A stretch of 33,909 bases of DNA from positions 82,226 through 116,134 of the forward strand of contig CALVUJ010000021.1 in NCBI GenBank assembly GCA_944363575.1, given 5' to 3'. Position numbers and translations under genes: made by a program. Shown piece after piece: positions 538 through 4,354 of this stretch (its first letter is position 1; every line of letters begins with the position of its first letter). The stretch is from an uncultured Bacilli bacterium (GTDB lineage Bacteria > Bacillota_I > Bacilli_A > RFN20 > DUOF01). The notes beneath the pieces are model-generated. The model was not told the DNA's origin, did not search any database, and saw nothing but the letters and a program-made list of their open reading frames with translations.

Positions 538-1654
538 CTATGCATCTTCTTTTAACAGCCAATTTGATATGTCTACTACTTTTATTGTTTCATATTGATA
601 TTCGTCATGCCTAGTCCTAGCAATTATCTTTTTAGGATAAGAATCCTTTATTTCTAACAAAGGCAAAACTTCTCTATTAAATGTTACTTCATTACTAATA
701 TTATCTGAAACTTGAATATAAATTTTTTCATTTTTTTTAACTGACACAAAATCTATTTCCTTTTTATACAAAACTCCAACATAAATCTCATAGCCTCTTC
801 TTAACAACTCTATCGCAACTATATTTTCTAAAATACGTCCATAATCCATATTCCTAGTTACTAATTTTGCATATCTAAAAGCACGATTGCTCAAATAATA
901 TTTTTCGCTTGTTGATAATTTTTTTGCTTTTATGTCATATCTGCTGATAAGATAAAACGCAAAAACATTACTTAAATATTGCAGATATTTACCTACAGTT
1001 TTATGATTTATTGTTTCTTTTTGAAGTTTAAATCTGTTTGTTATATTTCTAGTCGAAGTCAAATTAGATACATTATCCATTAAATAATTATGCAACTTAT
1101 CTATAACTAAAGCATTTCTTATCTTATATTTAGTTTGAATATCTCTAACAATCAAAGTATTGAACACTTCATGTATGTAATTATATTTTGATTCATAATC
1201 TTTATAAAGATAAGACCCATACATTCCACTTTCAATAATATATTTATAAAAAGCTTCATAGTTATCAGTATAATTAAAATATTCTTGATATTCTTTAAAC
1301 TAAAAAGGAAATACTTTTATTTCAAAAGTTCTTCCAGTAAACAAAGTTGCTAAATCACTGTTTAATAAGAAATCATTTGACCCTATTACTATATAAATAT
1401 CAAACTTTTTTAATGCGTGAAGACCATTTATTGCTTTTCCAAAATCATATAATTCATGATATTCCAGCAATTTTTCAAAATCAGGAAGATTAAAATTAAT
1501 ATGTATAGCATTAGAGTTAATCTCATCACTTAGAACATATTTTTTAAATGCTTCTAACAATTTAGATTTTTCTGAACTTCTAACACCAGTAATAACTTTA
1601 ATATAAAGTGTTTATCACTTTATTTAAATAATACTTTCTATCTATTAATTTCAT
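538..1654 (-). pseudogene. Degraded AAA ATPase with DUF4143 C-terminal domain
   Basis: This is the remnant of a prokaryotic AAA_14/DUF4143 ATPase, a family of unknown biological role often found in accessory DNA. The start is ATG at 1654 with AGAGG upstream. The first 18 codons (MKLIDRKYYLNKVINTLY) end in TAA; a frameshift near 1600 restores IKVITGVRSSEKSKLLEAF. The expected Walker A GVRRSGKS therefore reads GVRSSEKS, with the essential Gly replaced by Glu. The segment between LYD and FGKAINGL is too short and lacks the LDEIQ Walker B region, which suggests an internal deletion. TVFPF-type sequence is then interrupted by an in-frame TAG at 1300-1302, after which the same frame continues as FKEYQEYFNYTDNYEAFY. 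The C-terminal DUF4143 part (538-1224) is open and ends GRILENIVAIELLRRGYEI and onward. With four independent lesions, the gene is almost certainly non-functional. Confidence 0.85.
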
Positions 1655-2035: not shown

Positions 2036-2075
2036 AAGTGTTACAAATTGATATTTTTTTGACTTTGTAACACTT
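2036..2075 (-). terminator. Candidate intrinsic terminator after the double-HEPN gene
   Basis: A perfect 12-bp stem, AAGTGTTACAAA (2036-2047) pairing with TTTGTAACACTT (2064-2075), with a 16-nt loop. Read on the minus strand the stem runs into five T, which suits termination of the gene that ends at 2223. The distance of about 150 nt from that stop codon and the short T-tract lower the certainty. Confidence 0.5.
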
Positions 2076-2221: not shown

Positions 2222-2249
2222 TTCAAAACTTGATTTTCAAAACTTGATT
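2222..2249. repeat. Perfect 14-bp tandem duplication at a gene end
   Basis: Two identical 14-bp units (TTCAAAACTTGATT on the plus strand) lie head to tail across the stop codon of the minus-strand gene ending at 2223. Because 14 is not a multiple of three, the copies are read in different frames, and one copy supplies the TGA stop. This suggests a slippage event that reshaped the C-terminus (VLKIKF). Confidence 0.75.
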
Positions 2250-3476
2250 TTCTTTATTATTCTCCGTTAAACTTTGACACTTAGCAATAAATAATCTCTT
2301 TATCAACATATCTAAAGTTTCACAATCAAAGCTATCTATAAACTCTAATTTTTCTTCTGTTTTATCATCTCTAGGCCCATCATAAATATACAAACTAGCA
2401 TTTATATCTTTATAATATGTTCCATGCATTATAGCATTTCTTAATTTATTTAAAGGAATATAACTCAATTCACTACTTATTTGGTCGTGCAGCACATTAT
2501 TAGGAGTTGTTGAAAATATTTGAAATAAATTGTTACTTAAAAACATACTAAGAATATCCCCAAAATCTTTTAATTCCGTTAACCCACTCGGAGTGTGCAT
2601 ACTTGCTGTAGAAATAAAATTTTGAAGATTTTCACCTCTTAATTTTTTTAAGCAATTTAATAAATGATAAAAATCAATTGTTCTAATAAAATTATTTAAA
2701 GTATTTTGCTTATAGGGATAAAAGAAATTTAAATTATCAGTTTCTTTTATTTTATTATCTCTAATATCTAAAATTAATTGTTTTATTATTTTTCTTTGAT
2801 TCTCATCAGGGTGTAATATTTCATTTGTTCTAATATTTCTTAATTTAATAAACTCTTCTACATTGTATATAAGTTTCTTAGACCTAATTTTATCAATATC
2901 TATATCTAAAATATAATTCAGCTGTTTGTATTCGCTAATATTCTTAATATATTGAACCATTAATGTTACTAGTTCTTCTTCACTTATTATTACTCTAGTA
3001 GAATTATTAGTCTGCTTCTTTTTAGTTGGCAAGAAAGTAAATACTTCTCTAATAAAGTCATAATCATAACACGGGGTATCTAAATCATCATTATGCGCTA
3101 TGGCATTTCTTATATGACTTAATAGTTGCTCATTATTAAAACTTTTATTACCTTGTAAGACATTATTTTTTATTCTATCAAAAGTTGCTTTATCTTTGCT
3201 TAACCCATAATCATAATTTTTATACAGCATTTCATATATATAACAAACAGTTTGAATAACAACAGTGCTTTTTACAGATTTTATAGCATCTGCTAGTATA
3301 TCTCTAGCAGGAACTTCTTTATTATTTAATTTAAGACTAACTTGATTGTTAACTATTGATTCTTTAAAACATGCCAAAAAACTTTTATCAGATTTTTGCA
3401 TCCAAATAGTAAATGCATCTAATAGAGTCATATTATAAGTTAATTTAACTAAATTATAATTTGCTTCATTTACCAT
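2223..3476 (-). CDS. Putative double-HEPN-motif protein, unknown family
   Basis: A 417-aa soluble protein that I do not recognise as a named family. It has two R-x4-H signatures of the HEPN type: R123-N-A-I-A-H128 (followed by ND) and R346-N-A-I-M-H351 (followed by GTYY), one in each half. HEPN domains are metal-independent RNases in many toxin, abortive-infection and Cas13 proteins; the Asn after the Arg and the position in predicted helices fit that pattern. That it is an RNase is inference. ATG at 3476 was chosen because TAGGAGAG lies just upstream; an upstream in-frame ATG at 3503 has no SD. The gene stands alone between a pseudogene patch and a tRNA-Thr, with no CRISPR array, antitoxin or nucleotidyltransferase partner next to it. 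A 14-bp tandem repeat overlaps its stop codon. Confidence 0.6.
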   Translation of the reverse strand: MVNEANYNLVKLTYNMTLLDAFTIWMQKSDKSFLACFKESIVNNQVSLKLNNKEVPARDILADAIKSVKSTVVIQTVCYIYEMLYKNYDYGLSKDKATFDRIKNNVLQGNKSFNNEQLLSHIRNAIAHNDDLDTPCYDYDFIREVFTFLPTKKKQTNNSTRVIISEEELVTLMVQYIKNISEYKQLNYILDIDIDKIRSKKLIYNVEEFIKLRNIRTNEILHPDENQRKIIKQLILDIRDNKIKETDNLNFFYPYKQNTLNNFIRTIDFYHLLNCLKKLRGENLQNFISTASMHTPSGLTELKDFGDILSMFLSNNLFQIFSTTPNNVLHDQISSELSYIPLNKLRNAIMHGTYYKDINASLYIYDGPRDDKTEEKLEFIDSFDCETLDMLIKRLFIAKCQSLTENNKENQVLKIKF

Positions 3477-3515
3477 AAAATCTCTCCTATAATATAACTT
3501 CAATTAAAGAGTACC

Positions 3516-3609: not shown

Positions 3610-3683
3610 TGGTGCTGCCTGTAAGAATCGAACTTACACTTAAGCCTTACCATGGCTTCGTTCTACCACTAAACTAAGGCAGC
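3610..3683 (-). tRNA. tRNA-Thr(GGT)
   Basis: Full cloverleaf on the minus strand: acceptor GCTGCCT/AGGCAGC, D arm GTTT/GAAC, anticodon stem AAGCC/GGCTT around loop ATGGTAA with anticodon GGT (plus-strand 3649-3651), and T arm GTAAG-TTCGATT-CTTAC. The CCA tail is encoded (3610-3612). It reads ACC/ACT codons. It is solitary, between the PemK-like gene and the double-HEPN gene, a classic type of integration-prone position, although I see no duplicated tRNA end nearby. Confidence 0.93.
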
Positions 3684-3726: not shown

Positions 3727-4323
3727 TTAATTGTTTTCTATATGAAAAGCAATATAATTTAAAATTTCTAATTCATTAGAATAATTATTAACATCTTTTT
3801 TCACAAAATAATTATAAATATGTTCCTTAACTTTATCTAGCTGATTTTGGTTTAAAGTTAGTTTACCTTGTGGTTTATTAGGCATTCTCCCTATTCTTCT
3901 TTTACTAATTGACCTAATAGCATCTAACTTTAGATATGACCTAGTTATTCCATCATCATTTAATCCTTTTATAACACCTAAATCTAAACATAGCACTGAG
4001 TTATATGAATTTCTACTCGTAAGAGGTATAACCACTACATTACCTAAATCAACAGCCCACACTAAAGCATAATGCCCTTTAGTAAAAACATCACTTAGCT
4101 CATTACCAACATTTACGCCAAACTCTACCCATACGATATCTCCTCTTTGTATATCATCCGGTTGAGCACCATAACTAACTTTTAAAACACTTTGCCTAAA
4201 GTAAACTGTTTTCTTTTCTAACCATAACAAATATTGTAAAACTAAATCTGGATCTAGATTTACTAAATTTTTACGAATATTTTTAAATATTTTTTCATGA
4301 AGTATTTTGTAATTATTATGCAT
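3727..4323 (-). CDS. PemK/MazF-like type II toxin family protein
   Basis: 198 aa. Residues about 58-150 match the PemK/MazF fold: GDIVWVEFGVNVGNE near 61-75, then GHYALVWAVD and VVVIPLTSR (97-104), and IRSISKRRIG further on. Family members are usually sequence-specific mRNA endoribonucleases of about 110 aa. This one has an extra N-terminal helical segment of about 55 residues and a 40-residue C-terminal tail. No antitoxin gene lies beside it, so a housekeeping or regulated RNase role, or an antitoxin elsewhere, is possible. ATG at 4323 was preferred over GTG at 4329 because AGAGG sits eight bases before the ATG but almost touches the GTG. It follows rimO by 31 bp on the same strand. Confidence 0.8.
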   Translation of the reverse strand: MHNNYKILHEKIFKNIRKNLVNLDPDLVLQYLLWLEKKTVYFRQSVLKVSYGAQPDDIQRGDIVWVEFGVNVGNELSDVFTKGHYALVWAVDLGNVVVIPLTSRNSYNSVLCLDLGVIKGLNDDGITRSYLKLDAIRSISKRRIGRMPNKPQGKLTLNQNQLDKVKEHIYNYFVKKDVNNYSNELEILNYIAFHIENN

Positions 4324-4354
4324 AGACACACCTCTTTATATACTATGCCTATCC

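Follow-up and report, generated by a model that had tools for sequence, protein, structure and literature searches.

A compact protein with two HEPN motifs encoded beside a tRNA gene of an uncultured Bacilli bacterium, and other array-less double-HEPN ORFs of Bacillota

A 33,909-nucleotide stretch of DNA from an uncultured gut bacterium of the Bacilli (contig CALVUJ010000021.1; hereafter, the window) encodes P0001, a compact protein with one HEPN-type R-x4-H motif in each half. This observation is real and not an artefact. HEPN RNases normally are homodimers in which two R-x4-H motifs contribute to one composite active site. Judging from its sequence and by analogy, P0001 is probably a single-gene, single-chain (pseudo-dimeric) HEPN RNase that would combine two pEK499_p136-like HEPN domains and act as a toxin or abortive-infection effector. 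Most likely, the two halves would pair intramolecularly, as those of Cas13 do, yielding a complete nuclease from one polypeptide. Such an enzyme might be held inactive by its own linker or N-terminal parts or by another factor until a phage- or stress-derived trigger releases it, whereupon it would cut cellular RNA (tRNA or mRNA) and growth would stop. The first-pass annotation proposed an undescribed single-gene defence factor or toxin. The stand-alone double-HEPN part of that proposal is supported below; what we infer is that P0001 acts as an RNase, that its halves pair within the molecule, that a trigger turns it on a target and that it serves defence, the defence or toxin function specifically from the domain family, the patchy distribution and the genomic location.

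The gene and the adjacent features are as follows (window positions; domain boundaries are approximate).

2223-3476, minus strand: P0001, 417-aa double-HEPN protein (ORF and translation; top match to the HEPN profile in the host genome)
2907-3263, minus strand: HEPN1, about residues 72-190, comprising helices, the R-x4-H motif, strands and a final helix (PF18736 fragment match and leave-out profile)
3093-3110, minus strand: motif 1, R123-NAIA-H128 (RNAIAH, residues 123-128; translation)
2580-2906, minus strand: linker or middle region, about residues 191-299 (no Pfam match of the middle fragment)
2247-2579, minus strand: HEPN2, about residues 300-410 (leave-out profile and AF2 domain model)
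2424-2441, minus strand: motif 2, R346-NAIM-H351 (RNAIMH, residues 346-351; translation)
3483-3488, minus strand: Shine-Dalgarno-like AGGAGA preceding the ATG at 3476 (sequence)
2036-2075, minus strand: stem-loop with a perfect 12-bp stem and a T run after it, a likely intrinsic terminator downstream of P0001 (fold z-score -3.23)
3610-3683, minus strand: tRNA-Thr (GGT), with the accessory island on its 3' side, by synteny
3727-4329: PemK/MazF-like gene, between rimO and tRNA-Thr
538-1560, minus strand: DUF4143/AAA ATPase gene (PADLOC candidate family PDC-S01), probably a pseudogene since it is split and truncated

With AGGAGA ahead of the ATG and the stem-loop with its T run at the 3' end, P0001 appears to be an intact gene transcribed on its own. 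In composition shuffles of the protein, two RxxxxH motifs arise by chance in about 2% of cases, and two copies of R[NDHKQ]A[ILVM]xH in none of 200,000. The host genome, in 26 contigs, has 1,324 ORFs that are 100 aa or longer; 20 of them contain two RxxxxH motifs, and only P0001 contains two of the form R[ND]xxxH. The claim of one motif per half of a 417-aa protein is borne out by the translation. A third, weak HEPN-motif-like stretch lies within the linker in the middle of P0001 (LRNIRTNEILH; LRNIRTNEILHPD at 2811-2840, minus strand, residues 213-222); at the DNA level it is similar to motif 2 (repeat D10), and its protein similarity to HEPN2 is not significant. The last codons of the gene lie in a 14-bp tandem repeat (2220-2252; 2.4 copies, 100%).

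As a whole, P0001 showed no match worth naming to any Pfam, NCBIfam or PHROGs family, and its PADLOC matches are weak and centred on the motifs (CARF-HEPN, E 6e-4; RTasHEPN, around motif 1). When six fragments were compared with Pfam, HEPN1 alone matched PF18736 (pEK499_p136 HEPN), with an E value of 1.3e-4 and 22.2 bits, under the gathering cut-off of 26.6 bits; by that cut-off, P0001 is not a full member of the family. When 27 HEPN cores taken from other genomes were made into a profile, with P0001 excluded, the first half scored 29.9 bits and the second 24.4 bits, in a test that is partly circular given that the cores were chosen for the motif, and that is only partly controlled by shuffling; in 1,000 shuffles per half with the hexapeptide kept in place, the maxima were 28.3 bits (N-terminal half) and 19.3 bits (second half), so that none reached the observed scores. 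Across the entire host genome, the same profile gave 38.5 bits for P0001 and 8.4 bits for the next ORF. That no motif-preserving shuffle reaches the observed scores points to similarity outside the motif as well, among other parts in the strands and the last helix that follow it; the order of motif, strands and final helix is seen in the profile alignment of both halves and in the model of HEPN2. Thus, the conserved R-x4-6-H motif of the HEPN superfamily is present twice, and by this partly circular test both halves resemble HEPN domains around it, so that the comparison with HEPN profiles for which the first-pass annotation called came out in favour of HEPN, with HEPN1 matching PF18736 below the cut-off and both halves scoring above all shuffles.

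Locally, the two halves match at 38% identity over a short stretch of 45 columns, a score reached by 3 of 500 shuffles; the alignment of one half with the other is no longer significant once the motifs are masked, and we therefore do not claim a recent internal duplication. Assignment of the halves to HEPN1 and HEPN2 lineages was given up: they cross-match and do not separate.

About 1,120 partly overlapping genome look-ups among relatives and across the order, class and phylum, together with searches of GTDB contigs, IMG/VR, phages and plasmids, yielded no homologue of P0001, and the PDB searched with its sequence gave no match. Weak matches at L002, L008 and L010 were examined, and no ORF there is a credible relative. 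The searches did, however, bring up eight further double-HEPN ORFs of compact size (350-673 aa), two in genomes of the same family and six in MAGs of Bacilli or Clostridia type. PF18736 was detected in 12 of the 274 genomes of the order searched; these include three of the four same-family genomes covered, each with a compact double-motif ORF, namely, P0001, L015 and L017. L015 (350 aa; RNSFSH and RNSIAH) contains two PF18736 stretches and, at 29.7 bits, exceeds the cut-off; L017 consists of 503 aa and carries RNALMH and RNALAH. Given their marginal similarity to P0001 and their different genomic places, we do not claim orthology for either. Single-domain PF18736 relatives (L013, L014) occur in the same order as the P0001 host.

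Scanning GTDB contigs for the motif gave 31 loci, and six of these hold double-motif ORFs of 482-673 aa (L079, L081, L090, L091, L092 and L101), from MAGs titled Bacilli, Clostridia or Bacillota. Four of these (L079, L091, L092 and L101) form a family that aligns along the length of the proteins, with 24-34% identity to L091, and in it neither the Arg nor the His of either motif varies. Conservation of these residues, on which the first-pass annotation had staked its claim, thus holds within that family; it counts against the preferred reading that no homologue aligns with P0001 over its full length and that such conservation is seen only in other double-HEPN ORFs. Altogether, the profiles and the other double-HEPN ORFs that keep both motifs support two HEPN domains in a protein that is compact, array-less and stand-alone. 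A conserved 310-aa family of Anaerococcus (L075, L080, L082-L084, L086, L088 and others) was rejected as a double-HEPN candidate: it has a single HEPN domain (RNAIAHGNF), followed by a region that may resemble an Mrr/PD-(D/E)xK nuclease.

Alternatively, catalysis in P0001 might fall to a single domain, acting as a homodimer, with the other domain serving for regulation or RNA binding. Many HEPN domains are indeed non-catalytic RNA binders (PMC3710099), and HEPN1 was the sole fragment to match PF18736; however, both motifs of P0001 are canonical, and both are invariant in the four-member family, so that we regard this alternative as unlikely.

A survey of neighbouring genes was also suggested in the first-pass annotation. 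In one genome of the same family (G001), a same-strand trio (contig C1, L026:7412-10909) consists of a reverse transcriptase that PADLOC places in class UG26 (E 4e-159), a hydrolase and, as the third gene of this tight run, the double-HEPN L017, a candidate defence-associated reverse transcriptase operon with a double-HEPN effector. Most of the other double-HEPN genes, however, lie outside defence islands, amid housekeeping-looking genes, which counts against the interpretation of P0001 as a defence effector. No CRISPR array was found near these ORFs in the DNA examined, which covers their flanks in part.

P0001 itself had been described as lying beside a tRNA in an accessory patch, and synteny confirms this. 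The gene order in G001 is rimO, the PemK/MazF-like gene, small genes, tRNA-Thr and a conserved block; in the window, rimO, the PemK-like gene and tRNA-Thr are followed by about 7 kb absent from G001 that hold P0001, the split DUF4143/PDC-S01 ATPase gene, a gene for a 440-aa protein and two similar genes for proteins of 277 and 278 aa. With tRNA-Thr placed after rimO in relatives and the segment beyond its 3' side unshared, gene order puts P0001 in a partly decayed accessory island 3' of tRNA-Thr. The adjacent genes for the 278- and 277-aa proteins lie upstream of the window, in the same island (L011:12787-14668, minus strand); their products are clearly similar and coiled-coil-looking, and the pair forms a tandem duplication. 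An att-like repeat of the tRNA end was considered and dropped, as it amounts to a 12-mer that gives no evidence of an att site.

These surroundings bear on the possibility that P0001 is the toxin half of a toxin-antitoxin or other multi-gene system, with the PemK/MazF-like gene, the broken DUF4143 ATPase gene or the 440-aa gene as its adjacent partner. All three candidates share the strand of P0001 and are no more than a few kb away, and members of the pEK499_p136 family are known from defence operons (PMC3710099). However, G001, in which no homologue of P0001 was found, has a similar PemK-like gene after rimO; this gene thus belongs to the conserved block, so that we rejected it as a partner. 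The DUF4143/PDC-S01 gene survives as a split, truncated copy, and P0001 is bounded by the tRNA gene and the terminator-like stem-loop. The minimal nucleotidyltransferase of HEPN-MNT pairs is absent from the adjacent ORFs, which match only PemK, DUF4143 and AAA in Pfam. Altogether, we consider dependence on an adjacent partner quite improbable.

The four-helix bundle expected of HEPN domains was sought by structure prediction. Folded by AF2 without an alignment, full-length P0001 reached a pLDDT of 39. HEPN2 (residues 250-417), folded with 29 HEPN cores, reached a pLDDT of 64 and a pTM of 0.43; in ten-residue blocks from residue 340, pLDDT is mostly 79-86, with two blocks at 67 and 56, and it is highest around and after the motif and lower elsewhere. 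In this medium-confidence model, the motif lies at the end of one of the helices, and there are strands and, last, a long helix; Foldseek found no similar structure for it in PDB or BFVD. A full-length MAFFT alignment of the double-HEPN proteins placed motif 1 of P0001 out of register and was left unused for folding. The low-confidence structures, the lack of a Foldseek match and the lack of a full-length homologue would also suit a helical protein in which two HEPN-like hexapeptides coincide without a HEPN fold. Such a coincidence is very unlikely in view of the shuffle and genome-wide controls, the PF18736 match and the similarity outside the motifs.

The first-pass annotation further stated that P0001 has no CRISPR array and is less than half the size of Cas13. 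The former is correct along the entire contig, window included; the genome as a whole does contain one array, at the edge of another contig (C17; L122:1-350), with 30-bp spacers and a 36-bp repeat, GTTTTGATACCCTCACAATTTATGCTATATTGAAAC, of the GTTTT...AAAC form. A Cas9 fragment (450 bits) is located at the edge of contig C4 (L174), and Cas1 was not found in the genome, which is 91% complete; given that array and Cas9 fragment both lie at contig edges, this is most likely a type II system split by assembly. The size argument is out of date, Cas13an proteins being 429-577 aa long (PMC12165695). By sequence, P0001 has two predicted HEPN domains in one chain, as type VI effectors do; a linked array and a match to the Cas13 models of NCBIfam, by the whole protein or by its halves, are both absent, and by these sequence comparisons P0001 is not Cas13. 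That P0001 is nevertheless a Cas13-like nuclease guided by a crRNA in trans or by a nearby non-coding RNA, as its architecture and near-Cas13an size, the array in the host genome and a weak Cas13e match of HEPN2 in L079 and L101 (unlike in P0001) might suggest, is extremely improbable: the array is on another contig and accompanied by Cas9, no CRISPR repeat 12-mer occurs near P0001, and the upstream region is not unusually structured and yields no ncRNA, neither AbiF RNA nor any other credible Rfam match. Nothing supports RNA-guided targeting.

The unexpected set of stand-alone double-HEPN proteins is of greater interest than the orphan P0001 alone. Tentatively, these proteins may be a broad undescribed class of compact, array-less, single-gene and single-chain RNases of gut Bacillota built from fused pEK499_p136-like HEPN domains, either unconnected with Cas13 or survivors of the kind of HEPN-fusion toxin proposed as its ancestor. 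An origin of Cas13 by fusion of two defence-associated HEPN genes has been proposed (PMC12165695), as has its origin from HEPN toxins, possibly, on two occasions (PMC12669027). A full-text literature search for two, tandem or dual HEPN domains returned papers on Cas13, with no array-less double-HEPN protein among the matches listed, and no description of similar stand-alone proteins was found in the databases searched. The set makes it possible to test whether HEPN domains fuse into a one-chain nuclease independently of CRISPR, and whether the resulting proteins can by themselves protect against phages; if active, they would be very small single-chain RNases.

Among the known systems, the PF18736 family shares with P0001 the motif type and the similarity from the motif through the last helix; its members are predicted RNases, occasionally found in defence operons, and more generally RNase activity is predicted from the motif in the HEPN superfamily (PMC3710099). 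The PF18736 model, however, covers one domain of about 150 positions, whereas P0001 has two HEPN-like halves and is under the Pfam cut-off. Cas13an and Cas13e (PMC12165695, PMC12669027) resemble P0001 in having two HEPN motifs per chain, which in Cas13 pair intramolecularly (PMC12165695), and in size (429-577 versus 417 aa); Cas13an, however, functions with a CRISPR array and crRNA, and its HEPN domains group with AbiD/F (PMC12165695, PMC12669027), whereas P0001 has no linked array, no NCBIfam Cas13e match and pEK499_p136-like HEPN similarity. AbiF and AbiD (Abi_2) are defence-associated HEPN proteins and the proposed source of the Cas13 HEPN domains (PMC12165695); unlike them, P0001 has no Abi_2 match and no AbiF RNA (RF03085) nearby. 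The HEPN proteins associated with DRT systems (PADLOC RTasHEPN) are weakly matched around motif 1 (E 0.0075), and L017 lies downstream of RT_UG26; in contrast to L017 with its adjacent reverse transcriptase, P0001 has none among the ORFs beside it. Finally, Tha, the tail-activated HEPN defence protein, is a single-gene RNase that, like P0001, functions without CRISPR, and its RNSIMH motif, which is required for defence (PMC11087260), is close to the RNAIMH of P0001; it differs in having one C-terminal HEPN domain, a predicted homodimeric state and a location on prophages of S. aureus (PMC11087260).
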